DNA of 55,045 nt from Candidatus Auribacterota bacterium (GTDB lineage Bacteria > Auribacterota > Tritonobacteria > UBA1439). Under the pieces are notes generated by a model, which ran no database searches, had not been told where the DNA came from, and worked only from the letters and a program-made list of their open reading frames with translations. The stretch spans positions 1-55,045 of the forward strand of contig JAPLCX010000078.1 of assembly GCA_026392035.1 (NCBI GenBank). The letters are read 5' to 3'. Shown here piece after piece: positions 1,286 through 54,647 of this stretch. The position numbers and the translations under genes are program-made. Each line of letters opens with the position of its first letter. Position 1 is the stretch's first letter.

Positions 1286-4200
1286 TTACTGAACCACCGC
1301 TGAGGTCTTGGCGAAGGCAATCACATACCTGGTGTCAGCGGTGAGCTGCGACAGGCGCGAGACCGGCGGCAGCTTTCCGGCCTCCACCGCGACGCTATAG
1401 AACCAGACTGTGGAGCCTGCCAGCGCCCTGGGAACGGTTCCGGCCGAACGGATTGAGAGTGAATAGGGCGCCTTACGGCCCGGGACATTCTTATATAAGG
1501 CTTTTATACCACGTTTGACCGTGCCTTTCGGGAAAATCCTGTAAGTCCCCAGGGAGGTATCGGCGAGAATGTAGAAATCAAACCGGGCGGTGATGCTCTG
1601 TGAAAGTGTGACGCCGAGCCTGAACCGTTCACGCACGACCAGAGGTCCTGCCTCGATAGACAGCGTCGGCACCGGCGTGGGAGTGGGCACAGGTGGAGTC
1701 GTGGTGGACGTCGGCACCAGTGTCGGCGTGGAGGTGGGAGGACTCGTGGGCGTTCTCGTGGGCGTCACCGTCGGTGGCGGCGTGATGGTCGGGGTTCCGG
1801 TTGGCGTGCCGGTAACCGTGGGAGTGGGAGTGCTGGTCGGCGTCGGAGTTACCGTTGGTGTCGGGGTAATCGTTGGTGTCGGCGTGATGGTCGGCGTCTC
1901 CGTAGGCGTTCCCGTCGGCGTCCGCGTCGGTGTGACCGTCGGCGTGAGGGTCGGGGTGAAGGTCGGTACGAGGTCGAGGCAGTAGATCGAACTATCCTGC
2001 GCGCCGATATAGAGCCTCCTCCCCTCGCCTATCGCGATGGAGCTCGACACGATTTGTCCCCCTATGTAATAATTCCACAGCAGGTCCCCAGAGGGGCCGA
2101 GGCCGTACACGCTCCTCCCGTCTTGCGCGCCTATAAAAACCTTCCCGGATGAATCAATGGCAGGGGCGGAGTTGAGGGTCGAAATCGCGCGATAGCTCCA
2201 TCGCAGTCCGCCCGATGACGACAGCGAGTATATTCTCTGGTACTCGCCTCCGAAATAAATCGCTCCGTCGGAATCGAGCGCCGGGCAGTTGCGCGCCCCC
2301 CCGTCAAACGTCCACAGAAGGCCGCCCGACGATGAGAGGGCGTACAGCTTGTTGTCGTTCGAGCCTATGTACGCACTCCCATCGCCCCCCACCGCCGCCG
2401 ATCCCGCGACCATGTCGCCGGTGCCGTAGCTCCACTCAAGCGACCCGGCCGCGTTGAATGCGTATATGTTCTTATCATACGCGCCGGCGTAGATCCTTGT
2501 TCCCGCGTACGCTGACGGAGAGGAGTCCATCCTGTTCGCCATCGCATAGCTCCACCGCAGCACGCCGGCAACGGCCAGGGCGTACAGCCTTTTATCATGG
2601 GACCCGGCGTACACGTTGCAATCGCCGTCGAGCATGGGAGAGAGGAACGGGGATGTTCCCTCATAGCTCCATGCCAGTCCGCCGGATTGGGACAGGGAGT
2701 AGATGCATCCGACGAGGCCAGCCGTTGTTGCTGCATAGACATTTCCGTTGGAACCGAGGGCCGGGGAGGATACCGTGCGGCCCACGCCCATATAGTAGCT
2801 CCAGCCGAGCGCGCCCTCAGACAGGAGCTCATATAACCTGAAATCATCCGATCCGATATAGCACGCATTCAAGGGCCCTATCGCGGCAGATGATTGGATT
2901 ACGCCGCCGGTGCGGTAGCTCCACCTGAGTCCGGCGAAGCTCGGCCCCTCGAGGTGGCTGAATCCCCTGTGCCACATGTCATAGTGGAACATCGGCCACG
3001 GGGCATAGGGGGTGGGCGTCACCGTCGGCGTGATTGTCGGTGTCGGCGTGGGGGTGACCGTCGGGGTATCGGTTGGTGTGCCGGTATCCGTAGGCGTGGG
3101 AGTTATCGTTACTGTCGGCGTGATCGTCGGCGTCGGGGTTATTGTTGGCGTATCGGTGATCGTCGGCGGCGGCGTGATCGTCGGAGTATCGGTGGGGGTG
3201 GGCGTGGGGCCGGTGGGAGTCGGGGCCGGTGTGCCTCCGAAGATATACAGTCTATTATCATCAGATCCCACATAGACACGTCCATCTGATCCCAGTGATG
3301 GAGAAGAGTACACCGTGTTTCCAGTGAAATAACTCCATATAAGATTCCCTGCTGACGTAACTACATAGAAATTGTTATCGTTAGAGCCAAGATATATCTG
3401 CCCGTCAGAAGCGAGGGCGGCAGAAGATTCCACACTGCCCACCGTTGCGTAACTCCATGCGAAACTCCCTATTGAACTAATGTGATACAAGCTATTGTCA
3501 TTGGATCCAACATATAAGCCCCCGTCTGATCCGAGCGCGGGAGAAGAGGTCACCAGACCTCCAGTTCCATAGCTCCACATAAATGCACCTGAAGAACCGA
3601 GGGCATATAAATTGTTGTCCCACGACCCGACATAGACCTCTCTGTCAGATCTCACGCAGGGTGAAGAATAAATATCACCTCCGGTGAGATAGCTCCATAT
3701 AAAGGTACCTAACGAAGCGATTGCGTACATATTGTTGTCATATGATCCGATATATGCCTGTCCCTCGGAATCTACTGCGGGAGAAGAAGATATCCAATTT
3801 CCAGTGCCATAGCTCCACAGCATCGTCCCTGTAGAATGAAATGCATAAAGATTATTGTCGAGAGACGCGATATACACCATCCCCGCAGATCCTATAGCTG
3901 GAGAAGAAGATACTGTATTCCATGTTAAGTAGCTCCAGCACAATGTGCCTGATGAATTGAAGGCATAGAGATTCTTGTCATTGGACCCCACATACGCTCG
4001 TCCATCAAAGTCTATCGCAGGACATGACCTGATCCAACCATCGCTCGCATAGCTCCAGAAAAGGGATCCAGTTGAATTGATCACATAAAGGTTGTCGTCA
4101 TTAGACCCCACATGCAACCGGCCATCCGATCCAATGGCGGGAGAAGAACTCACCTCTCCTCCTCCTTCATAGCTCCACACAAGGGCCACAGTCGAAGCAC

Positions 4201-4336
4201 CCAGGAAAGGGCTCTGAGCCGTGTGCGCCGGATTGTAACGGAACATAGGCCAGTCGCCGGCGACTTGCGCCACTACGGCTCCGGAAATAAAAACCGCAAC
4301 GGCTATACATCCACAGGAGACCGCTAACCGCTTCAC
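1286..4336 (-). CDS. Secreted protein with two 8-bladed PQQ-like propellers and Pro/Thr linkers
   Basis: I start the 1016-residue protein at GTG 4336 because AGGAG lies about 9 bases upstream and the product then opens with a clean signal peptide (MKRLAVSCGC... AVVAQ). An ATG at 4372 is the alternative. Layout: signal peptide; propeller 1 opening with DWPMF and eight blades ending in the WSY motif (about residues 30-360); a Pro/Thr linker of about 90 residues; propeller 2 opening PWPMF with eight blades, two of them degenerate (WTF, WNY); a second Pro/Thr linker; and a C-terminal beta-rich domain of about 125 residues. The blade consensus ([22 protein letters not shown]) is the PQQ/BamB-like fold, but no catalytic residues of quinoprotein dehydrogenases are visible. 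I infer an extracellular binding or structural role rather than an enzyme. Confidence 0.85.
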   Translation of the reverse strand: MKRLAVSCGCIAVAVFISGAVVAQVAGDWPMFRYNPAHTAQSPFLGASTVALVWSYEGGGEVSSSPAIGSDGRLHVGSNDDNLYVINSTGSLFWSYASDGWIRSCPAIDFDGRAYVGSNDKNLYAFNSSGTLCWSYLTWNTVSSSPAIGSAGMVYIASLDNNLYAFHSTGTMLWSYGTGNWISSSPAVDSEGQAYIGSYDNNMYAIASLGTFIWSYLTGGDIYSSPCVRSDREVYVGSWDNNLYALGSSGAFMWSYGTGGLVTSSPALGSDGGLYVGSNDNSLYHISSIGSFAWSYATVGSVESSAALASDGQIYLGSNDNNFYVVTSAGNLIWSYFTGNTVYSSPSLGSDGRVYVGSDDNRLYIFGGTPAPTPTGPTPTPTDTPTITPPPTITDTPTITPTPTITPTVTITPTPTDTGTPTDTPTVTPTPTPTITPTVTPTPYAPWPMFHYDMWHRGFSHLEGPSFAGLRWSYRTGGVIQSSAAIGPLNACYIGSDDFRLYELLSEGALGWSYYMGVGRTVSSPALGSNGNVYAATTAGLVGCIYSLSQSGGLAWSYEGTSPFLSPMLDGDCNVYAGSHDKRLYALAVAGVLRWSYAMANRMDSSPSAYAGTRIYAGAYDKNIYAFNAAGSLEWSYGTGDMVAGSAAVGGDGSAYIGSNDNKLYALSSSGGLLWTFDGGARNCPALDSDGAIYFGGEYQRIYSLSSSGGLRWSYRAISTLNSAPAIDSSGKVFIGAQDGRSVYGLGPSGDLLWNYYIGGQIVSSSIAIGEGRRLYIGAQDSSIYCLDLVPTFTPTLTPTVTPTRTPTGTPTETPTITPTPTITPTPTVTPTPTSTPTPTVTGTPTGTPTITPPPTVTPTRTPTSPPTSTPTLVPTSTTTPPVPTPTPVPTLSIEAGPLVVRERFRLGVTLSQSITARFDFYILADTSLGTYRIFPKGTVKRGIKALYKNVPGRKAPYSLSIRSAGTVPRALAGSTVWFYSVAVEAGKLPPVSRLSQLTADTRYVIAFAKTSAVVQ

Positions 4337-4519
4337 GAGATCTTCTCTCCTGAAGAATCTTCCATCCGCCATTTCCAGTCCGAGGGATCCCCCACGGGCA
4401 CGACGCCATGCGGCATCGCATGGAGCCCGGGCTCTTCTGCTCAGGCGGATAAACCTACCAGTCTGAACTTACCATAAGTGTCTCTCAATGTCAAAAACCT
4501 CCCAGAATGCTCCCTGCCC

Positions 4520-4548
4520 TTGACATATTGGTTTTATTGATGTAAATT
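4520..4548 (+). promoter_or_regulatory. Sigma-70 promoter of the pseudopilin operon
   Basis: TTGACA (4520-4525), a 17-base spacer and TAAATT (4543-4548). Transcription would begin near 4555, about 40 bases before the conserved core of the c-di-GMP riboswitch, so the aptamer is inside the leader. Confidence 0.75.
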
Positions 4549-4594
4549 TTAGGTGGAAAGAGGAGAGGGCAGGAAGCCCTCTCCGATGGAGACC

Positions 4595-4706
4595 CTGATA
4601 AAGGCAAACCATCCGTAAGGGTGGGGCGCAAAGCTCAAGAGCCCTGAGACTCCTCTCAAAAAAAAGGAAGAGGGTCGTAGGACAGGGCAGTCAGTTGCCG
4701 GGTCTT
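4595..4706 (+). ncRNA. Cyclic-di-GMP-I (GEMM-I) riboswitch aptamer
   Basis: The conserved landmarks are all present in order. GGCAAACC (4603-4610) is followed by a six-pair hairpin, 4609-4614 with 4619-4624, closed by a GUAA (GNRA) tetraloop at 4615-4618. Then comes GGCGCAAAGC (4625-4634), then a second arm with GCCCUG (4641-4646) paired to CAGGGC (4683-4688), and finally the closing strand UUGCC (4695-4699), which pairs with GGCAA (4603-4607). By my alignment the base equivalent to Vc2 G20 is G4603 and to C92 is C4699. That is the canonical c-di-GMP arrangement, not the A20 form linked to cyclic GMP-AMP. It lies directly upstream of pseudopilin genes, a known class of GEMM target. Confidence 0.92.
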
Positions 4707-4713
4707 ATGTCCG

Positions 4714-4745
4714 CGCCCGCCTCTATCAGATGGCGGGCGTTCTGT
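4714..4745 (+). terminator. Intrinsic terminator / expression platform of the riboswitch
   Basis: CGCCCGCC (4714-4721) pairs perfectly with GGCGGGCG (4732-4739) around a 10-base loop, and TTCTGTT follows. It sits between the aptamer and the first gene. I infer transcriptional control: ligand binding would favour or prevent this hairpin. The sign of the control cannot be told from sequence alone. Confidence 0.75.
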
Positions 4746-4760
4746 TAAGAGGTGAGGGAG

Positions 4761-5192
4761 ATGAGCGCGCATAGATTAGAGAAGCGAAGATGCCGGAGGC
4801 CAGAGCACGGCCTCACGATAGTCGAAGTCCTTGTGAGTATCGCCGTATTCGGCATTTGTATACCGGTCCTCCTCGGGGCGATGCTGTTCTGCTACAGCAC
4901 CACCAAAATCAATGCGCATAAAATGACCGCGCTCACCCTCGCGCAGAAGAAGATAGAAAATCTGATGAATCTTAAATTCGCGAGCTTATCGACGACGGCC
5001 CATGCGTACGATGAGAATAATGTGCCGTTGGATTCGGCGGGGTCCCTCAGGGGGAATGTTGCCGCCGTGGTCACCTCTGATGGGAGCCAGCGGAAGAAAA
5101 TTACGGTTGCCGTGAAATGGAACGAGTGCAGGCGCAATCTCAACGTGGCACTCGACACGCTCGTGAGTGACAATATTGTCACCAAACCATGA
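4761..5192 (+). CDS. GspI/PilV-type pseudopilin
   Basis: This 143-residue protein has a type IV prepilin leader: a basic N-terminus, then the cleavage motif G|LTIVEVLV with the conserved Glu at mature position 5. A hydrophobic helix of about 20 residues follows and then a small soluble head. The ATG at 4761 is chosen because AGGTGAG lies just upstream; a GTG at 4752 would overlap that site. Prepilin peptidase (PilD) would cleave and methylate it, and it would act as a minor pseudopilin at the tip of a type II secretion or type IV pilus fibre. It is the first gene of an operon of four under the c-di-GMP riboswitch. No assembly ATPase, PilC/GspF or secretin is encoded next to it. Confidence 0.85.
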   Translation: MSAHRLEKRRCRRPEHGLTIVEVLVSIAVFGICIPVLLGAMLFCYSTTKINAHKMTALTLAQKKIENLMNLKFASLSTTAHAYDENNVPLDSAGSLRGNVAAVVTSDGSQRKKITVAVKWNECRRNLNVALDTLVSDNIVTKP

Positions 5193-5204
5193 CGGTGATG
5201 CCCT

Positions 5205-5954
5205 ATGAACGCGCGGGAGATGAGACAGAAAAAGGGATTTACCCTGATAGAGGTTCTCTTCGCCTCTTCATGCTCGATCATCGTCGCGGGAGGAGTGCTG
5301 GGGCTATTCATCACGCTCTCTCGCCTCTTTAGCGATGGTTCAACCCAGATGCGCCTGACATCCGAGGCGCGCTACGGGATGGAACGTATCGCCGCCGATG
5401 TGAGGGGCGCCGAGCTGCTCTCCGTGCAACCAACGGGTGATCAGATCAATCTCACTATCCCGGTCACCAATCTCCGTGCGGATATCGCCAGTTCGGATAC
5501 TGCTATCCCCGTGGACTCGACGGGCCCTTTACCCTCATCGGGGGTAATCTATATCGGTGGCGAAGCGATACTCTACGGCGGTGTCACGGGCAGGGGACTG
5601 CCGAATCCAGAGATCTCTTCGTGCACGCGCGCCTACAACGCGACCACCGCTGCGCCTCACAAGGATAATGAAGTCGTGTACGTGAAACCAATTTACTACC
5701 TGAATGGCGGCAGGGTGTGCCTGAACACAAACGGCACCCCGAACCCCGCCACCGATGGAGTCCTTCTCAGGAACGTGGAGAAGATCAGCGGCACAAACCT
5801 GTTCCAGCAGATACCGGTGGGGAGTTCATCATATAAAACAGACCGCGTCCAGCTCGTCTTCCGCTGCTTTCAGGACAGAGACGGAGATCACCTGAGAGAC
5901 CCTAACGAGCCGGGGCTCGATTTCAGCATGGAACTATTTCCGAGGAACAAATGA
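5205..5954 (+). CDS. PilW/GspJ-type minor pseudopilin
   Basis: This 249-residue protein has the leader QKKG|FTLIEVLF, with Glu at mature position 5, then a hydrophobic helix and the segment SEARYGMERIAADVRGAEL, which is typical of PilW/GspJ proteins. The soluble domain is predicted to lie outside the cytoplasm at the fibre tip. It begins 12 bases after the previous stop and ends 4 bases before the next start, so it is clearly cotranscribed. Family knowledge suggests that these minor pilins prime fibre assembly and may carry adhesive or cargo-binding heads. Assignment to PilW rather than GspJ is not certain. Confidence 0.85.
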   Translation: MNAREMRQKKGFTLIEVLFASSCSIIVAGGVLGLFITLSRLFSDGSTQMRLTSEARYGMERIAADVRGAELLSVQPTGDQINLTIPVTNLRADIASSDTAIPVDSTGPLPSSGVIYIGGEAILYGGVTGRGLPNPEISSCTRAYNATTAAPHKDNEVVYVKPIYYLNGGRVCLNTNGTPNPATDGVLLRNVEKISGTNLFQQIPVGSSSYKTDRVQLVFRCFQDRDGDHLRDPNEPGLDFSMELFPRNK

Positions 5955-5958
5955 TGCC

Positions 5959-7704
5959 ATGAAAACACAACGCATGACAAATGAATCCGGCAGCCTGCTG
6001 CTCATCGTGCTCCTGGTGATCCTGCTTTTCACAGGGCTCATCGTCGGCGTCGTATTCGAGCCGATCAGCAGTAGCGGCTCCTACTCTGAGCAGGCTGGGC
6101 AAACTTTCGGCTGGGGGCAAGGCTGGCTCTGTGCCGTCCATACCGACGTTCGGCACACATCGCGAAAAATCAAGCACACCGCCGCGCTCTACCTGGCAGA
6201 GGCGGGGAGTGAACACGCAAAGCAGTGGCTCTCCAGCCAGGCTTCTTCGCCTACGACTCCCCAAACCATCCCTGCAGCCACCGTTCTTGGCGCGAGCTCG
6301 GTCAATCTCGGAAGCGGCTCTTACACCGCCCGGATCGTGGTTTCATCAGGCGCGTTCGGTATCCCCTGCTATACCATCACCTCTACCGGCACCGTCGTCG
6401 ATAACGACCCCGATCCAGCCATGACAACCAATCTCAGGACCATCAAGCGCGCAATCGTCGTCAAAGCCATCCTGGGGAGTTTCGCACGCTACGCTTATTT
6501 CACGAATACCGAGCCAACTATATGGTTCACTACGCAGGATGCATTGCTGGGGCTCGTGCATACCAATGGCACGCTTCACCTGGCCGGCGAACCGGACTTC
6601 TGGGGCCTGGCAAGCCAGAGCGGGAGCACCTTCACTTTTTACAATAATGGCAATCCCATCTCCAGCTCGAATCCCTCGAACTCGCCCATGGATGTGCCGA
6701 ACTTCCGGGATGGCTATAAGCTGAGCGCCCCGAACGTTCCCTATCCCACAAGCACCACCGACATAGAAGCAGCGGCGCAGGGGAGCCAGGGCATCGTCGT
6801 CAACGGCGATTCTGAAATCACGCTGAGCGTGGGAGGGGGAAATGTCGGGGAGGTGCAATACACGCAGCCGGAGGAGCAACAGGTCTGGCACGATCCGGTC
6901 ACCCACACCCACAGTTGGGTAGGAACGCACGCCGGCATCTATCATCGCACCAACTACTCTCAGACGCATACACACGCCGGCTACTACACCACCGAGACGG
7001 TGACGGTGACGTATAACGCAACAGTGTACGACGGGGAAGCCAACCCGGGCGGCAAGGCGGTCATCTACGTCAACGGAGATGCGGAGGTGCAGGGGGCACT
7101 CGCGGGCCAGTTCACCGTCCTCACGAAGGGCGATATCATCGTGACCGATAATGTTGTGTACCGCGTGAATCCTGTGGACTACGATGGTGACGGATTGTTA
7201 AGCGATGCCAATGACAACGGTGTCAACGATCCCCATTTTGACCGGGACGGCGATGGGGATTACGACCTCCCTGGCGAGGCTGCAGATGACACGGATGATA
7301 ATGGCGACGGCATTCCCGATGCCGCGGGATACAATCAGCCGGAATCCTCCGACACGCTCGGCCTTGTCGCGAAAGGCGATGTCATTGTCGCTGATGATGA
7401 TGGCCCTGCAATCAATCGCACTATTTCTGGCAGCATCATGGCGCTCGGGACTTCTGATAATCTCAATGGGAGCGTCGGTAGCTTCCGAGTCGAGGATTAC
7501 GCAAGCCATCTCGAGGGAGTATTAACCGTGGTGGGCGGAATCGTCCAAAAAACGCGCGGAGCGGTGGGCCAGGGCATCGCCCCGAGGACAGGAGGCTATT
7601 CCAAAAACTACATTTATGACAAGAGACTCCTCTACTATCCCCCCCCCTACTTCCCGCCCGCGAAGGCGTATGATCTCATCTACTGGCAGGAGGTGCCGCA
7701 ATGA
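5959..7704 (+). CDS. PilX-like large minor pilin with Ca-binding-like Asp-rich segment
   Basis: This 581-residue protein starts with a short basic leader, then ESGSLLLIVLLVILLFTGLIVG, the hydrophobic helix usual for PilX-type minor pilins. The class-typical LAEAGSEHA motif follows. About 30 extra residues separate helix and motif, which is unusual. A long extracellular region follows. Near residues 395-455 it holds repeated DxDGDG/DxNGDG-type loops (DYDGDG, DRDGDGDYD, DDNGDG) resembling EF-hand or thrombospondin-3 calcium sites. A His-rich stretch around residues 310-335 could also bind metal. I infer a fibre-tip protein whose head is stabilised by calcium. Its stop overlaps the next start (ATGA at 7701). 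Confidence 0.75.
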   Translation: MKTQRMTNESGSLLLIVLLVILLFTGLIVGVVFEPISSSGSYSEQAGQTFGWGQGWLCAVHTDVRHTSRKIKHTAALYLAEAGSEHAKQWLSSQASSPTTPQTIPAATVLGASSVNLGSGSYTARIVVSSGAFGIPCYTITSTGTVVDNDPDPAMTTNLRTIKRAIVVKAILGSFARYAYFTNTEPTIWFTTQDALLGLVHTNGTLHLAGEPDFWGLASQSGSTFTFYNNGNPISSSNPSNSPMDVPNFRDGYKLSAPNVPYPTSTTDIEAAAQGSQGIVVNGDSEITLSVGGGNVGEVQYTQPEEQQVWHDPVTHTHSWVGTHAGIYHRTNYSQTHTHAGYYTTETVTVTYNATVYDGEANPGGKAVIYVNGDAEVQGALAGQFTVLTKGDIIVTDNVVYRVNPVDYDGDGLLSDANDNGVNDPHFDRDGDGDYDLPGEAADDTDDNGDGIPDAAGYNQPESSDTLGLVAKGDVIVADDDGPAINRTISGSIMALGTSDNLNGSVGSFRVEDYASHLEGVLTVVGGIVQKTRGAVGQGIAPRTGGYSKNYIYDKRLLYYPPPYFPPAKAYDLIYWQEVPQ

Positions 7705-8150
7705 CACGCATGCAGAATATTGCGCATCAGATAAGGAGGCCCGAGACTCCGTATATTATCCTGATCATCATCCTCATTGCGCTCTTCTTTACAAGCGGTA
7801 GAAAGCCCCTCGACTCCGGACATCACGATTTGGCTTTATCGCACCCTGCGAAACACACATCTGCGAATGCCGCCCCGCAGCCTGAAGAAAGCGCCGTCAC
7901 CACTTCGGAGAACCAGCAGACTATCTCCCCACCTGTTCCTCACTCGAACCGATTTGCCAGGGCACTGAGGCCGGTCTCTCCGGCAACTGAACCCCCTATT
8001 CCTGGTGCGAGCTTCCGGGTAAAAACAGAGCCCCTTCGGAAAATCAATTGGAAGGAGATGCACGCCTCGCCGCGGGAGGAAACCCCTTTTCAAAAAGATT
8101 CTGATAACATTCATCCTACCGCCGGCACGTTTGAACCACTGCCGATGTAA
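7701..8150 (+). CDS. Single-pass membrane protein of the pseudopilin operon
   Basis: This 149-residue protein starts at the ATG overlapping the stop of the PilX-like gene, so translation is coupled. It has a basic N-terminus, one hydrophobic segment at about residues 18-32 (YIILIIILIALFFTSG), then a long low-complexity, Pro- and Ser-rich tail without recognisable domains. I do not recognise a family. Topology (short cytoplasmic N-terminus, extracytoplasmic tail) and position suggest an accessory protein of the fibre, perhaps a spacer or anchor. It is the last gene before a MITE-like element. Confidence 0.65.
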   Translation: MTRMQNIAHQIRRPETPYIILIIILIALFFTSGRKPLDSGHHDLALSHPAKHTSANAAPQPEESAVTTSENQQTISPPVPHSNRFARALRPVSPATEPPIPGASFRVKTEPLRKINWKEMHASPREETPFQKDSDNIHPTAGTFEPLPM

Positions 8151-11012: not shown

Positions 11013-12845
11013 CTAATTCACCACCGCCGCGTGCTTATCCATAAGGATCACATACTGGGTGGTCGGCGTGAGATCGGACAGCTTTTTCACTGGCGGTTTC
11101 TTCCCAGCCTGTATGAAAGCGGCGTAGAAGGTGATCGTCTTCCCTTTCATGGATGCGGGAATTTTGATCTTTGGGCGTATCGTCGTTATGTAGTCCTTGG
11201 TGAAGCTCTTCACCTTCCTGTAGAGCGGCGCGATCCCCTTCTCGACCTTCCCGTTCAGGTAAATCGTGTAGACCCCTGCAGGGGTGTCGGCGAGCATATA
11301 GAAGTCGAATGGCTGGGTGATATCCTCAGTCAGTCCCACATAAACCGAGAAAGTCTGGCCGGTCGTCAACGTCCCCGGGAGGACGACCAGCGGCGGGATG
11401 GGTGTGGCTGTGGGAGCCGGAGGCGTAACCGAAGGTGTCTCCGTCGGTGTCGCGGTAGGCGTCTGAGTGGGCGTGTCAGTCGGCGTTGATGTTGGCGTAT
11501 CTGTCGGCGTGTTCGTTGGAGTGTTCGTTGGTGTTGGAGTTATCGTGGGCGTTTCTGTAGGTGTCTCAGTTGGTGTCGGCGTGATCGTGGGTGTATCAGT
11601 GGGCGTCTGAGTCGGCGTATCTGTGGGCGTTACTGTGGGAGTTGTGGTCGGCGTGCTGGTAGGTGTGACTGTCGGGGTATTCGTAGGAGTTGCAGTCGAC
11701 GCCTGCTCAATGGAATACATGTTGTAATCAAACGACCCGATATAGAGCCTCCCGTCACTCCCGATCGCGGGAGAAGAATACAAGTAGTCCCCGGTCTTAT
11801 AAGTCCATGCCCGCGCACCAGCTGAGTCCAGGGCGTAGATATTGCAGTCGTAAGAACCTACATAGACCTTCCCGTCGCTCCCGAGCGCGGGAGAGGAGGA
11901 ACGTATATCGCCCGCCGTGAGATAACTCCACGCCAGCTCGCCCGTTGAATTCAGGGAGTATAAATTATTATCATAGGATCCGACATAAATCCTCCCGTCG
12001 CTCCCGAGCGCGGGGGAGGAATACACATCCTCCTTCGCGCAATAACTCCACGTAAGAGCGCCCGCCGAGCCCAGGCAGTATATGTTATTGTCGTTAGATC
12101 CGACATAAAGTTCCCCGGACCCCCCGATCGCTGGAGAGGAATCCACATAGTCCGCCGCGCGATAACTCCACGCAAGAGCGCCCGCCGAGCCCAGGCAGTA
12201 TATGTTGTTATTTGCACTGTCGGACCCTATATAAATCCTCCCGTCACTCCCGATCGCGGGTGAGGAATACAGATCGCATACTCCTGCGTGATAACTCCAC
12301 GACAGCCCGCCTATTGACTTTAAGCAGTATATGTTGTTATCTTGCCAGCGGGTGCCGAAGTAAATCATCCCGTCACTCCCGATCGCCGGAGAGGACAGTG
12401 TGCCGTAATATGCGCGATAGCTCCACGCCAGCCCGCCCGCTGAGCTAACGCAGTATATGTTGTTATCACCCTCAAAGACGGGGGCGGTCGTGACATGAAT
12501 GTTGCCGTCAAGGCCGATCGCGGGACCCGTGCCAATCCAATTCGCCGCGAGATAACTCCAATACAGCCCGCCCGCTGAGCCAAGGCAGTATATGTTACTA
12601 TCACCCCCGAAATAAAGCCTCCCGTCGCTCCCGATCACGGGAGGGGAGTACACCCCGCCCGCAGTTTTATAACTCCATGCCAGAACAGGCGCGGACGGGC
12701 CGGTGTATGACCAGCTGAGTCCTGTATGCAGCGCGTTGTTGTGGAACATCGGCCAGGGGGAGCCGGGTTGCAGCTGGCCGAATGTCAATGATGTCATCGA
12801 AACCATAACCGCCGCGCTCAATGTCATAAACAGTCTTGCTCTCAT
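11013..12845 (-). CDS. Secreted one-propeller PQQ-like protein with Pro/Thr linker
   Basis: The 610-residue protein starts at ATG 12845, which has GGAGGA a few bases upstream. Order: signal peptide ([24 protein letters not shown]); the [14 protein letters not shown] opening motif; eight WSY/WTY blades of about 40 residues; a Pro/Thr linker of about 100 residues built on the TPT unit; and a C-terminal domain of about 120 residues ([18 protein letters not shown]...). The C-terminal domain closely resembles that of the 1286-4336 protein, which even shares the ending TxxYVI. I infer an extracellular surface or secreted protein. Its promoter contains a poly-G tract (see 12889-12918), so expression could be phase variable. 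Confidence 0.85.
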
Positions 12846-12888
12846 CTCTTCCTCCGTTGCCTGACAGCGGGCCATATTCCACAACAGT

Positions 12889-12918
12889 ATACTACACATG
12901 GGGGGGGGCGGAAGGCAA
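12889..12918 (-). promoter_or_regulatory. Promoter with a 9-G homopolymer in its spacer
   Basis: On the minus strand TTGCCT (12913-12918), an 18-base spacer and TAGTAT (12889-12894). The spacer contains nine C on this strand (nine G at 12900-12908 on the plus strand). Losing one base would give the optimal 17-base spacing. Candidate slipped-strand phase-variation site driving the propeller gene; the promoter itself is a moderate match. Confidence 0.5.
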
Positions 12919-12943
12919 CGAATTATTTTGTTTCGCGAGAAGC

Positions 12944-13022
12944 TGGGGTGGATGAGGGGATTTGAACCCCCGGCCCCCTGGGCCACAGCCAGGTGCTCTA
13001 ACCAGACTGAGCTACATCCACC
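12944..13022 (-). tRNA. tRNA-His (anticodon GTG)
   Basis: A full cloverleaf is readable. The acceptor stem GTGGATG (13015-13021) pairs with CATCCAC (12948-12954). The D-arm contains AGCTCAG. The anticodon stem CCTGG/CCAGG encloses the loop CTGTGGC, and the T-arm carries GGGGGTTCAAATCCCC. Discriminator C and CCA are encoded (12944-12947). Base 13022 supplies the G at position -1 that is diagnostic of histidine tRNA. Confidence 0.95.
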
Positions 13023-35684: not shown

Positions 35685-36432
35685 ATCTTGTGGTCCTCTT
35701 AACCCGAATTATTCATCTCCCCAATTGCAGGGGTTCCCTGCCTACCGGCAGGCAGGGATTTATCGAACCCGCCATAGAAACGGGTCGCGCGTTTTACATG
35801 GCAAGCTTGATATTTGCCCGCCTATGGCGGGGGGGAGGTTAGGGGTTGAACTACTGTTAAAAGCTCAAGGCCGAAAGTTGAAAGTCGATATACCTTACGC
35901 TTCGAACTTTAAACTTCTGCCTGCGGTCAAGATACCCCGGTCAGAACCTCACACCCGGACTCAAGTTTGGCTGGTTCTCCCATGGCTCAGGCCGCGCCCA
36001 GGGGATGGAAGATCCCCCCTCCGGCGTCGAGCAACCTGAAAGGATTGCCAGTAAAGTCGCAAGGCATATGATACTCAGGACCAATCGAACGTGGCACATT
36101 ATGTCACTATCCTATCGCCATTATCTTAACGTGTTATTGTAATACCCCTCCACTCAGAAATCAACTAATTCTGCCTCTCCAGAAATTGCGCATAACCGAT
36201 TACAACCTTCACCAACCGGGCGCGCGTCAATCAGAAATGGCAATCTTGCGATATCTGAAAACGAGAATGCGGACAAGATTCCTGAATATCGAAGAATGAG
36301 CTTTGCCAAAACGCCGAAAATTGTACTATCGTTAGTAAAGGTAGCAAAGGCTTCTGCGGAATGGTATATTTGAGGTATTCGATCAGGCGGAGGATGCATG
36401 GCAGCGAGGTTGCTTTTGTAAGAAAGGGCAAA
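35685..36432. repeat. Long intergenic stretch with a nested repeat and one small lipoprotein gene
   Basis: Bases 35726 to about 35830 are a degenerate TGTAGGGG-type element (TGCAGGGGTT ... ATTTATCGAACCCG), interrupted at 35736-35757 by the CCTGCCTACCGGCAGGCAGG palindrome. Bases 35860-35925 carry the AAGTTGAAAGT word repeat. A small lipoprotein gene occupies 35941-36099 on the minus strand. Bases 36100-36432 are AT-richer and form the leader of the following metallo-beta-lactamase gene. An 81-residue minus-strand frame (36154-36399) there is unsupported. Confidence 0.6.
35941..36099 (-). CDS. Small lipoprotein (52 residues)
   Basis: The frame runs from ATG 36099 to TGA 35941. It opens with a basic N-terminus, a hydrophobic helix (LVLSIICLATLLAIL) and the lipobox LSGC, with Cys23 as the likely acylated residue. 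The mature part, about 30 residues, ends IPWARPEPWENQPNLSPG. An IPW..P..WE motif after a lipobox is a pattern I associate with small lipoproteins of PVC-type bacteria; that link is from memory. The ribosome site (AGGATAG) is modest. Because of its size it is easily overlooked. It lies about 255 bases upstream of the GH-like gene, on the same strand. Confidence 0.72.
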   Translation of the reverse strand: MCHVRLVLSIICLATLLAILSGCSTPEGGSSIPWARPEPWENQPNLSPGVRF

Positions 36433-39400
36433 ATGAAGAGGGTGTTTTTTTATTCGCTTATTTCTTCTCTGGTCTTGATTGCGGGTATCGCCTCCGCCCA
36501 GGAGCTACAGATCTGGTGCGTGTGGGCCAACGGCCACTCGGGGATCGGCACCGTGATCAAGGGGCCGGGGACGGGCGGGAAGGTCGTCCTCTTCGACGAG
36601 GGCGGTGGTGCTGACTGGGCGGCCTACGCGAAGGACCTTTGTACTTCCGTGGGGATCAGCAACGTCGACTACTGCGTCGCTACCCACTACGACAGGGACC
36701 ACATTTACGGCATCGACGATTTCGTCTCGGACATGGGTGGGCAATCCCACTTTGGCACATACTATGACCGTGGCGGCAGCTATGACTATGATGGTGATGC
36801 CATCGACGCGAACTACATAGTCACCGTTTCTGGGAAGAGGGCGACCGTCATGGTCAACCCTGCATCGGACATTGACCTCGGCAACGGCGCGATCCTCCGC
36901 TTCCTCACCGTCGGCGCGCCGGACGATCCCGGCCCGACGAACACCCTCTACGTCAGGGGCAGGCCGGATGTCACCAGCGGCATGAGCGAGAACGACAAGT
37001 CCATCACCTGCCTGGTGACCTACGGCGGGTTTGACATGTACCTTGGGGGCGACGCCGAGGGGACGGACGAGGGGCAAGTCGCCCTTGTGAAAGGCGACCT
37101 CGGTCGCCACGTGGACGTGATGCTCGTGGACCATCATGGTTCAGATACCAACGGCATCAGCTCTCCGACGTTCCTCGGCAGCATGGACCCGGAAATCGCC
37201 GTCATCTCCGTCTGGTCCAACTCCTATGGCCATCCCAGGGAAACGACCGTAGAGAATTTCACCGCGGTGGTGGATTCAGGCGTCATGAGCATCATCCGCC
37301 TGTATCCGGGCGATAGCGGCGGCACGGGCTGGGCCCCCGAGACGCCGAGTCCTCCGCGCTTCACCACCAACCGCCACGCGTACATTCATACGGATGGCAG
37401 CACCTATTCCGTCGAGGCGGTGCTGCCGGGCAGCACCCCCACGCCGCTTATCACCGGTCATCTGACGGACGACCCGGGCCTCGCACCCACACCAACACCG
37501 AGGCCAGAGGATCTGTGGCCCATGTTCCACAACGATGCCCTTCATGCGGGAAAGAGCACCCTCTCGGGACCGCGCGCCCCTGTGTTTGTCTGGAGCTATG
37601 TCTCCGCCGATGACATCAATTCGTCCCCCGCGCTGAGCGGGACCAGTTCAGTCTACATAGGCTCCCGAGACCGTAATCTTTACGTCATCGATTCCCCCGG
37701 CAACCTGCTGTGGAGCTACGAGATCTACGAGGGCGCCTACACCGCTCCCCTCTCTTCATCCGCCGCGGTGAGCACCCAAACGGTGTACATCGGCTCGGAT
37801 GACAACGTGCTCTACGCGCTGCGGCAGGACGACGGGTTGCTGCTCTGGAGCTACGGGACGGGGGGCGACATCTCCTCCTCGCCGACTTTCGATCCAACCT
37901 CCACGGTTTATGTGGGTTCTGAAGACAGCCGGCTCTACAGTCTCAACTCTGTTGGTTCTCTGTTGTGGAGTTACGAGGCCTCCGAGCCTATCGCTTCGTC
38001 GCCTGCGATAAGCACCGACACGGTGTACGTTTGTTCTGATGACAACCGTCTCTACAGCGTAACCAATCTCACCGGTGTGCTCTCATGGAGCTATGTAACC
38101 GGAGATAAGATATCCTCCTCACCTGCGGTGAGCGGGACAGAGACGGTCTATATCGGTGCACGGGACAACACCCTGTATAGCATCAGCTCCGCGGGAGCGC
38201 TGGTGTGGAGCTACGGGATGGCGGGGGATATTCTCTCCACGGCGGCATTGAGCACCGACAAAGTCTGTGTCGGTTCATATGACAATGTGCTCTACGCGCT
38301 GTGGCAGAGCGGGGGACTGTCCTGGAGTTACGAGACGGCGGACGACATCGACTCTTCTCCCGCGGCGGACGCGGTGGATGCGGTGTGTGTGGGGTCTGGA
38401 GATGGCATTTTCTACAGCGTTGACTCGCTCGGGAGGCTCCAGTGGAGTTACGAGACGACAGCGCCGATACGCTCATCGGTCGCGATAGGCACCGACACGG
38501 TGTACATCGGCTCCCAGGACAATGTCCTGTATGTCATTGCCGAGGCAACGTCCACCCCCACACCGACGAGCACACCCACACCGACAAAAACACCGACAAA
38601 CACACCGACAATAACGCCCACGAGAACCCCGACTCGAACTCCCACGGCGACGCCGACGATCACACCCACGCCGACAGAAACACCGACCTGGGATCCGAGT
38701 ATTCCGACATATACCCCCACCGAGACCCCCACGATCACCGCGACCCCGACCATAACACCCACACCCTATGCGGACTGGCCGATGTTTCGTCATGATGCGA
38801 GGCATACCGGGCTGAGTAATTATGAGGGGCCGTCCATACCAGTATTCGCATGGAGCTATGTGACCGAGAGTTCGGTGGATTCTTCTCCCGCGATCGGTGC
38901 CACAGGGGAAGTTTATATCGGCTCTGGTTGGGGTGGCAATAATCTCTACGCGATGAATTTTGACGGCGTGCTCAACTGGAGCTATAAGACTGGGAGTGAG
39001 ATATATTCCTCTCCCGCGATCGGCAGTGACGGGAGGGTGTATGTCGGCTCCGGTTATTATGACAAGAATCTCTACGCATTTAACCAGAACGGCGTGCTCA
39101 ACTGGAGCTATAAGACTGGGAGTCAGATATATTCCTCTCCCGCGCGGGGCAGTGACGGGAGGGTGTATGTCGGCTCTGCCTGGGGTGATAATAATCTCTA
39201 CGCATTTAACCCGAACGGCGCGCTCAACTGGAGCTATAGGACTGGTGCTGCTGTATATTTCTCCTCTCCCGCGCGGGGCAGTGACGGGAGGGTGTATGTC
39301 GGCTCTGAGGATTATAGATTCTACGCGATTAATTCTGACGGCGCGTTCAACTGGAGCTATCGGACTGGGAGTTATATAGAGTCCTCTCCCGCCCTGGGGA

Positions 39401-40365
39401 GTGACGGGAGAGTATACGTCGGCTCTGAGGATTATAGATTCTACGCGATTAATTCTGACGGCGCGCTCAACTGGAGCTATAAGACTGGGAGTGAGATATA
39501 TTCCTCTCCCGCGATCGGCGCCACAGGGGAAGTTTATGTCGGCTCTGGGGATTATAGATTCTACGCGATTAATTCTGACGGCGTGCTCAACTGGAGCTAT
39601 AAGACTGGGAGTGAGATATATTCCTCTCCCGCGCGGGGCAGTGACGGGAGGGTGTATGTCGGCTCTGCCTGGGGTGATAATAATCTCTACGCATTTAACC
39701 CGAACGGCGCGCTCAACTGGAGCTATACGACTGGTGCTGCTATATATTTCTCCTCACCCGCGATGGGGAGCGACGGGAGGGTGTATATTGGCTCTGGGGA
39801 TAGCGCTCTCTATTGTATCGAGCAACCGCCGACCGAGACACCTACACGAACACCCACTCCGACAAAGACGCCGACGATCACGCCGACAGCTACGAACACT
39901 CCGCTCCCCATGCCAACGGCCACTCCCACCCGGACCCCCACTGCTGCCCCAACAAGTACGCCCACGCATACAGCATCACCGCTGCCGACGCCCACTCCGT
40001 CCGGCCTCGTGGTCACGCTCAACAAGCAGATTGCTTCGCCAGGGATGGTGGTGGTTGCCCGCGCGAAGATCCCCCCGGTCCCCCCGAGCAATCCCGTAGA
40101 TGCCTATATTCTCGTGCGCTATCCCTCGGGACAAATCTACTCCGTGATGTTCGACGGCGCTGTCATGAAAGGTGTTTTCCCCTGCGCAACGGGAGTGCGC
40201 ACGCTGGGCAATGGATGGTCGGGCGACCTTTTCAGCCACAGGGTATGCAGGGAGGCGATGGAAGGCATCTACACCGTGGGGCTCATTCTGATGCCAGAAG
40301 GAATGCCGATGAGTCTCTGCAAAGCCGTCACTTACAACCTGATGAATGTCACTATAGTGAAGTAG
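36433..40365 (+). CDS. Metallo-beta-lactamase domain fused to two 8-bladed PQQ-like propellers
   Basis: This protein of about 1310 residues has a signal peptide ([23 protein letters not shown]) followed by a ComEC-type metallo-beta-lactamase domain (to about residue 330). The metal site is [10 protein letters not shown] (HxDxDH form), with MYLGGDAEG and LVDHHGSDT further on and the typical YGHPRE near its end. Next come propeller 1 ([12 protein letters not shown], eight WSY blades), a Pro/Thr linker, propeller 2 ([13 protein letters not shown], eight WSY blades of near-identical sequence), another linker and a C-terminal domain of about 125 residues. The metallo-beta-lactamase part looks catalytic; ComEC-like domains often act on nucleic acid or phosphodiester substrates. 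The substrate here is unknown. The propellers may tether the enzyme to the surface or a ligand. Confidence 0.85.
38990..39800 (+). repeat. Near-identical tandem blade repeats (about 120-130 bp)
   Basis: Seven consecutive blades share long stretches of DNA (for example CTCAACTGGAGCTATAAGACTGGGAGTGAGATATATTCC in parts). They differ mainly at loop codons, so this half of the propeller looks recently duplicated or homogenised by recombination. The first propeller of the same gene shows no such identity. Confidence 0.8.
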
Positions 40366-52931: not shown

Positions 52932-54647
52932 TCACAGTTTCGTAGTTATAGTCACTGTCCCCTGCCATAAGCAACCCGGGATTGCGTTTTGTAATCTGGG
53001 CTGCGCCGCGGCGGGAACAAGTCCCACGATGAAAAGATATTGCCCGGTCAATCCGCTGGGGACATAGACTGCATATAGTCTCCGCTGGAATGGTTCCCAA
53101 AGGCCCGGTACATCCTTATAAAGAGGTATCAAACCTGTCCGCAGAAAGCGCGGATTTTCGAGGTTGAACGAGTAAATCTGTCCCCCTGGGGCGATTATCA
53201 CCCCGTAAGTATCAAAAGTGTCAAGCAGCGGCTGTACTATCACGTCAATCGTAAAAAGCTCCCCCGGCGATGGCGTAGTGCTGTTCAAAATCACGACTAG
53301 GAGCGGCGTCGGAGTTACCGTTGGTGTTCTGGTCGGAGTAATTGTCAGGGTTATAATCGGCGTCGGCGTGCACGTAGGTGTTGTCGTCGGAGTATTCGTA
53401 ATCGTCGGCATATCTGTAGGCGTCATCGTCGGCGTTGGAGTCTCCATCGGTGTCTCTGTCGGAGTTTCTGTCACCGTTGGCGTCTCCGTAGGCGTCGGCG
53501 TGATCGTCGGAGTAGGCGTGCATGTTGCAGTAGGTCCCTGCTCGATGCAATACAAATTATAACCAGAGCCAACATAGATACACCCATCACTTCCGAGTGT
53601 GGGTGAGGAAGACATGTCTCCCCCGGCCGGATAAATCCAGCTGAGTGTACCATTTGAATTAAGAGCATATAGATTATAGTCATGAGAGCCGACATATACC
53701 ATCCCGTCACTCCCCAACGCGGGAGAGGAATTTACACCATCCTGGGCCCGATAGCTCCAGTTGAGCGCGCCGTCCGAGCCAAACGCATAAAGTTTATTGT
53801 CAACAGAGCCTACGTATACCATCCCGTCACTCCCCAACGCGGGAGAGGAATACACCTCATCTTGCGTCCGATAGCTCCAATTGAGCGCGCCGTCCGAGCT
53901 AAACGCATAAAGTTTAGAGTCATAAGAACCAATATACACCCCCCCATCACTTCCAAGTGCGGGAGAGGAGTATACATAACCACCAGTCGGATACGTTCTG
54001 GCGAGTGTGCCGTTTGAGTTAAACGCATAGAGATACCAGTAATAAGCAGAGCCGATATACGCTCTCCCGTCACTCCCGATCGCGGGGGAGGAATACACAG
54101 ACATATAATATGCAATCCGATAGCTCCAGTTGAACGCGCCGTCCGAGCTAAACGCGTAGAGATTATTATCCCAAGAGCCGACATACACCCTCCCGTCACT
54201 ATCCAGTGCGGGGGAGGATATAACCCAATCTCCCGTCCTATAACTCCATGCGAGGCCTCCGGCTGAGCTGAAGGAGTAGAACTCATCATCAGCGAAGCTG
54301 ACATATATCCTCCCATCTCTCCCCAACGCGGTAGAGGAGAGCACACCGCCACCAGTCCGATAGCTCCAGTTGAGCGCGCCGTTAGAATTAACCGCGTAGA
54401 GATTATTGTCACCCCCAACATACACCCTCCCGTCACTCCCAAGCGCGGGGGAGGAACCGCCTCCCGTCTCATAACTCCACGCGAGTCTGGGTATTGACAG
54501 CCCCGCGTATTCGCTCTGGCCTGTGTGCCGTGCATCGTGGTGAAACATCGGCCAGGGGGAATTGGCGAGCTGGGCGTAAGGTGCTGGGATGAGGAGGCAG
54601 AGCAGGATGAATGTTTGACTAACACCGCTAAGAATCCTGCATTTCAT
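52932..54647 (-). CDS. Secreted one-propeller PQQ-like protein with Pro/Thr linker
   Basis: This 571-residue protein has a signal peptide ([17 protein letters not shown]), the opening motif [14 protein letters not shown], eight blades of which two end in degenerate motifs (RTY, WIY), a Pro/Thr linker of about 75 residues and a C-terminal domain of about 120 residues ([21 protein letters not shown]...). The ATG at 54647 is preceded by GAGGGAGAG. It closely resembles the protein at 11013-12845, and the C-terminal domain resembles that of the subtilase. I infer a secreted or surface protein. The broken gene at 52879 starts about 50 bases after its stop. Confidence 0.85.

Follow-up and report, generated by a model that had tools for sequence, protein, structure and literature searches.

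Results

The stretch of DNA analyzed in the present study, referred to below as the window, is a 55,045-nucleotide contig (JAPLCX010000078.1) of a metagenome-assembled genome of Candidatus Auribacterota (2.8 Mb in 122 contigs). On its forward strand, positions 4520-8150 carry in one line a promoter, a riboswitch aptamer of the cyclic di-GMP (c-di-GMP)-I class, an intrinsic terminator hairpin, and four co-directional open reading frames (ORFs; 4761-8150), an arrangement that had been recognized in a previous interpretation made from the letters and their ORFs (the sequence-only reading) and that is retained here. We consider it probable that this riboswitch acts as an OFF-switch at the level of transcription and controls a minor-pilin cassette of a type IV pilus.

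The aptamer (4593-4702, +) was matched by the covariance model RF01051 (c-di-GMP-I, also named GEMM-I) with 54.1 bits against a cut-off of 35, and 87 of 87 model positions were covered; the class assignment of the sequence-only reading thus passed the covariance check that it had called for. P1 is formed by GACCC (4591-4595) and GGGUC (4700-4704), P2 by 4609-4614 and 4619-4624 around a GUAA loop (4615-4618), and the P3 arm is larger by about 36 nt. In a small-window search, RF03167 (c-di-GMP-I-GGC) was the top-scoring model with 55.9 bits, slightly above RF01051; since this score is under its own gathering cut-off of 59, the assignment to RF03167 was dropped and the aptamer was filed as c-di-GMP-I. 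The c-di-GMP-I-GGC class was reportedly defined by Weinberg in 2017.

In the RF01051 alignment, the aptamer shows a P2 with a GNRA loop and the GGCAAA and GACGCAAA-type binding strands, the latter reading GGGGCGCAAAG in the window and GGGACGCAAAA in a sister genus with an orthologous leader (G001). The previous claim that all conserved GEMM-I landmarks are present held for these elements and failed for the tertiary contact, because GUAA forms the P2 loop and P3 lacks the canonical 11-nt tetraloop receptor for a GAAA loop (the loops are GUAA and GCAA, with no CCUAA/UAUGG). The RF03167 consensus is likewise without the canonical receptor strands. Among 134 aptamers from Auribacterota and Omnitrophota, the receptor was wholly absent in 42 of the 46 with a non-GAAA GNRA loop versus 29 of the 79 with a GAAA loop; the combination of GAAA loop and receptor is common in the class and not obligatory. 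Regarding the ligand, the covariance alignment places a G (4603, +), the first of GGCAAA, at the ligand-specifying position G20 of Vc2, as had been claimed. The G20A change is a known route of GEMM-I toward the binding of cyclic GMP-AMP (cGAMP) (PMC6274999), and G4603 is the base marking c-di-GMP rather than cGAMP, which makes c-di-GMP the probable ligand by sequence. A degenerate or altered aptamer, one that in vivo binds a different dinucleotide or nothing at all, might be suspected from the missing receptor, the enlarged P3, and a score that is middle-to-low for a phylum with values up to 82.1 bits; however, the binding-site strands are intact, G4603 is the c-di-GMP base, the core is almost identical between genera, as described below, and the lack of the receptor is common among the aptamers of these phyla with other GNRA loops. 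We regard this explanation as very unlikely.

The terminator hairpin (4714-4739, +), CGCCCGCC-loop-GGCGGGCG, consists of 8 G-C pairs (4714-4721 with 4732-4739) and a loop at 4722-4731, has a predicted energy of -18.4 kcal/mol, and is followed by the weak U-tract UUCUGUUAA; a consensus scan overlooked it because the loop is 10 nt long. Only 10 nt past the stem lies a Shine-Dalgarno-like sequence, AGGUGAGGGA (4750-4759, +), which precedes the likely ATG of gene 1 at 4761. The sequence-only reading had raised the possibility that aptamer and terminator are mutually exclusive, which was ruled out by the fold check: the terminator lies wholly downstream of the aptamer and coexists with it in the full-length fold, and the two jointly oppose an antiterminator that is predicted, from minimum free energy (MFE) folding and shuffles, to be built from aptamer sequence. 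This joint competition is the reason why an OFF-switch is predicted.

The aptamer 5' strand, CUGAUAAAGGC (4595-4605, +), has a predicted second role as an antiterminator strand. It is complementary at 10 of 11 positions, and at 11 of 11 in G001, to the segment GCCUCUAUCAG (4719-4729, +), which spans the end of the terminator 5' arm (3 bases) and the beginning of its loop (8 bases), and most of this conserved loop can pair with the aptamer strand. This complementarity was reached by 1.3% (window) and 0.15% (G001) of random shuffles of the downstream stretch. A second predicted antiterminator segment, GGGCGC after P2 (4624-4629, +), pairs with 4713-4718 in the transient MFE structure at transcript end 4730, with P2 mostly intact. 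In stepwise MFE folding of the window, P1 of the aptamer was present up to transcript end 4718, the antiterminator at ends 4730-4734, and the aptamer together with the terminator from 4738. The energy advantage of the antiterminator over the aptamer fold was 10.2 kcal/mol for the window (end 4730) and 13.8 kcal/mol for G001 (end 354), and in both genomes the fold with aptamer and terminator won after the 3' arm had emerged. Of 600 trials in which the arm and loop were shuffled, 1.0% (window) and 0% (G001) matched this energy gap; with the loop alone shuffled, the values were 3.2% and 0%.

Since both the 5' strand and 4624-4629 are paired in the antiterminator, both strands of the ligand pocket would be consumed by it, and ligand binding should therefore favor termination. 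In the proposed mechanism, without ligand, 4595-4605 (including G4603) and 4624-4629 would base-pair with the terminator's 5' arm and loop (4713-4729), hairpin 4714-4739 would be blocked, and the operon would be transcribed. When c-di-GMP is bound, the two strands would be retained in the aptamer, the hairpin would form, and transcription would end ahead of gene 1.

A comparison with G001 showed that the aptamer and terminator are high-identity blocks within a poorly conserved leader. Identity amounts to 52 of 55 positions in the aptamer core, 16 of 16 in the terminator stem, and 9 of 10 in its loop, as well as 24 of 29 in the promoter and 11 of 42 between promoter and aptamer. The promoter (4520-4548, +) is of the sigma-70 type, with TTGACA (4520-4525), a 17-nt spacer, and TAAATT (4543-4548), which together agree with the consensus at 10 of 12 positions, and it is kept in G001. 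Between promoter and aptamer, the MFE fold contains a strong 9-bp hairpin (4562-4584, +) that is not found in the aligned G001 leader; it lies close to the predicted transcript start and may protect the 5' end of the mRNA. When 41 relatives were searched besides the window's own genome (G000), an orthologue of gene 3 was found in G001 and in a third genus (G003) only. The four-gene operon of G003 (locus L088, G003:C14) is without a riboswitch, has a near-consensus TTGACA/TATAAT promoter directly ahead of gene 1, and yielded no hidden aptamer at E up to 1 in an RNA search of the locus. The loci of the window and G003 represent a natural gain or loss of a riboswitch between genera.

In a scan of 59 genomes, the window's own included, c-di-GMP-I aptamers were detected in 23 genomes at E <= 0.01 and in 22 over the cut-off, and in Omnitrophota 156 of 193 genomes carried them at E <= 1e-6, with as many as 13 in a single genome. 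Two layouts recur, in one of which the terminator shares the aptamer 3' strand (ON-type) and in the other of which it is separate (OFF-type). The ON-type was found in 24 of 55 Auribacterota aptamers, the aptamer 3' strand serving as the terminator 5' arm, and includes the only other c-di-GMP-I aptamer over the cut-off in the window's own genome (G000:C80:30523-30605, locus L032). These examples raise the explanation that the window aptamer is a c-di-GMP-I ON-switch, in which the ligand blocks a terminator sharing an aptamer strand, and the pilus switches known from Geobacter (pilM; PMC9262584) and Clostridioides difficile (pilA1; PMC6366702) are also ON. However, the window leader yielded no segment that could pair with the aptamer 3' strand and has U-rich sequence behind it, the best strand-sharing hairpin reached -3.9 kcal/mol versus -18.4 for the separate terminator, and the separate hairpin was best in G001 as well; an ON-switch is, in our view, unlikely. 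Both layouts are present in G001, in which the ON-type aptamer at L048, as at G000:C80, lies ahead of a protein with a similar N-terminal sequence. Among 78 OFF-type members, the complementarity of terminator arms to their own aptamer exceeded that to non-cognate aptamers (Kolmogorov-Smirnov p 0.0006), with 16 of the 78 in the best 5%, and the antiterminator partner differed among members, being the 5' strand, the P2 3' strand, or the aptamer 3' strand. At L083 (G003:C4:11962-12093) and L079 (G017:C53:59272-59402), aptamers were observed in which the GGGACG/CGCAAAG strand linking P2 and P3 contains an additional hairpin, near the ligand pocket.

Several points weigh against the proposed OFF-switch. 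The window and G001 provide the only two orthologous leaders, which are related and show zero compensatory changes, and the window pairing contains an A-C mismatch (4601/4723). When compared with non-cognate aptamers, the best simple duplex ranked at 0.013 in G001 and at an unremarkable 0.29 in the window, the latter because the conserved strand is common to all aptamers, and the window was not among the best 5% in the cognate-arm test described above, which is a conservative measure. Thermodynamic folding leaves out the ligand, tertiary contacts, and kinetics, and the window cassette does not adjoin other pilus genes. Furthermore, the terminator tail contains 5-6 U in 9 nt in the window and G001 alike, and termination may consequently be leaky. 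These weak U-tracts, together with the 10 nt between stem and Shine-Dalgarno sequence, also speak for an aptamer that would act mainly on translation or mRNA stability, with hairpin 4714-4739 as a pause or spacer; however, the stem stops before the Shine-Dalgarno sequence, no strong alternative fold masks the latter in the MFE series, and many relatives likewise have a separate hairpin followed by a U-rich tail. An effect of this kind appears rather unlikely, and the transcriptional OFF-switch remains our preferred interpretation.

The first two of the four downstream genes encode prepilin-type minor pilins, consistent with the pseudopilin operon of the sequence-only reading, as the prepilin N_methyl motif (PF07963) was found over the cut-off in both. 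Gene 1 (4761-5192, +; PilV/GspI-like, 143 aa) matches it with 23 bits, has weak gspI, ComGE, and PilV matches, and has an alternative GTG start at 4752, which would give 146 aa; gene 2 (5205-5954, +; PilW/GspJ-like, 249 aa) matches it with 23.5 bits. Gene 3 (5959-7704, +; 581 aa) occupies the PilX/GspK position, and its N-terminal hydrophobic helix and the gene order agree with this type. Its orthologues in G001 and G003 are 65% and 61% identical, respectively, with remote relatives in Omnitrophota; it contains Asp-rich D-x-D-G-D-G loops, and a C-terminal GYSKNYIYD is kept as far as Omnitrophota. Gene 4 (7701-8150, +), which overlaps gene 3 by ATGA, encodes a 149-aa membrane protein with a single helix. 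Genes 3 and 4 gave no family match over the cut-off in Pfam; for gene 3, no solved homologue was found, and its structure model was poor (mean pLDDT 46.5).

The last two genes had been described as non-standard, a claim that is weakened because three Auribacterota genera and two Omnitrophota genomes (contigs L090 and L091) have the same order (PilV-like, PilW-like, PilX-like, small one-helix membrane protein). The slot of gene 4 is occupied in Omnitrophota by an unrelated-looking small membrane protein, no sequence similarity being found between the window and L090 proteins. At L090, the four genes are directly followed by pilM, pilN, and pilO-like genes, as named from their translations, which suggests that the cassette functions in a type IV pilus. 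With regard to pseudopilins of type II secretion, the cassette is not clustered with gsp genes, and a gspF-like gene with a four-pseudopilin cluster lies separately on G000:C9.

The c-di-GMP-I aptamers ahead of prepilin-type genes recur in Auribacterota and Omnitrophota. In a phylogenetically clustered sample of Auribacterota, pseudopilin genes followed 8 of 17 OFF-type versus 0 of 19 ON-type aptamers when assigned by hand (p 0.0008); with automatic assignment, the counts were 6 of 21 and 0 of 24, respectively (p 0.007). A general preference of pseudopilin genes for OFF-type switches was not replicated in Omnitrophota (4/59 versus 3/26, p 0.67), and we do not claim it.

In the window's own genome, the ON-type aptamer at G000:C80 is located downstream of a histidine kinase and a response regulator and precedes a protein of 350 aa that is predicted to be secreted. 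The genome gave six PilZ matches and one GGDEF protein (303 aa, GGDEF motif intact), the presence of which speaks for the proposed OFF-switch. Taken together, these findings allow a broader proposal, which we put forward tentatively and with less than even confidence, that the 5' ligand-binding strand of the aptamer itself serves as the antiterminator, the base recognizing c-di-GMP thus also being part of the read-through helix, and that the one detected diguanylate cyclase drives a reciprocal program, in which minor pilins would be switched off and a secreted surface-type protein switched on through the other riboswitch. In G001, a REC-GGDEF gene (L076, 7666-8541) lies approximately 4 kb from the riboswitch operon; none lies near the window operon. 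The window also encodes four WSYxT-repeat proteins with Thr-Pro linkers, at 1286-4372 (-), 11013-12986 (-), 36361-40365 (+), and 52932-54647 (-). The last of these and the protein encoded downstream of the genome's ON-type aptamer have a C-terminal domain of roughly 100 aa in common (41% identity, E 2e-13). WSY-repeat genes were also observed behind ON-type aptamers in G001 and G006.

Discussion

If the proposed switch is correct, c-di-GMP represses pilus genes in an uncultured phylum, opposite to the pilus switches of C. difficile (c-di-GMP) and Geobacter (cGAMP), and the same sensor class activates another surface gene in the same genome. With two switches of the c-di-GMP-I class and a single detected GGDEF protein, the circuit would be small enough to be rebuilt in a laboratory host. 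The aptamer counts in the 59- and 193-genome sets point to a heavy reliance of these phyla on the c-di-GMP-I sensor; Omnitrophota, rich in these riboswitches, are apparently little studied, as one literature search gave no paper that links this phylum to c-di-GMP riboswitches.

OFF and ON logics are both already known in the c-di-GMP-I class. The window adds one member to a known kind of switch, which would be distinguished by the predicted 5'-strand antiterminator and the presumed repression of pilin genes. The closest known system is Cd1 in the flgB leader of C. difficile, a c-di-GMP-I OFF-switch in which, with ligand bound, the aptamer is present together with a terminator downstream of it, and both oppose an antiterminator (PMC9262584). 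In Cd1, the antiterminator consists of strands T, A, and H and is built on the aptamer-stabilizing strand A, whereas that predicted for the window recruits strand P, the 5' strand, and has the base equivalent to G20 within its helix; the targets are flagellar genes in Cd1 and pilus genes in the window.

The pilM riboswitch of Geobacter metallireducens, a relative of GEMM-I, resembles the window in that an aptamer of the GEMM-I type precedes genes of a type IV pilus. In contrast, it senses cGAMP and is an ON-switch of the pilus operon with a terminator sharing aptamer strands (PMC9262584), a layout found at G000:C80 and not at the window operon. In C. difficile, pilus genes (pilA1) are activated by c-di-GMP via a class II riboswitch (PMC6366702). 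Besides these systems, the Omnitrophota cassettes share with the window the order of the four genes and the C-terminal GYSKNYIYD of gene 3, and differ in the placement of the sensor: no aptamer was found on the stretch of L091 examined, whereas L090 carries one between genes 2 and 3 (RF03167, 66.2 bits) rather than in front of the operon.

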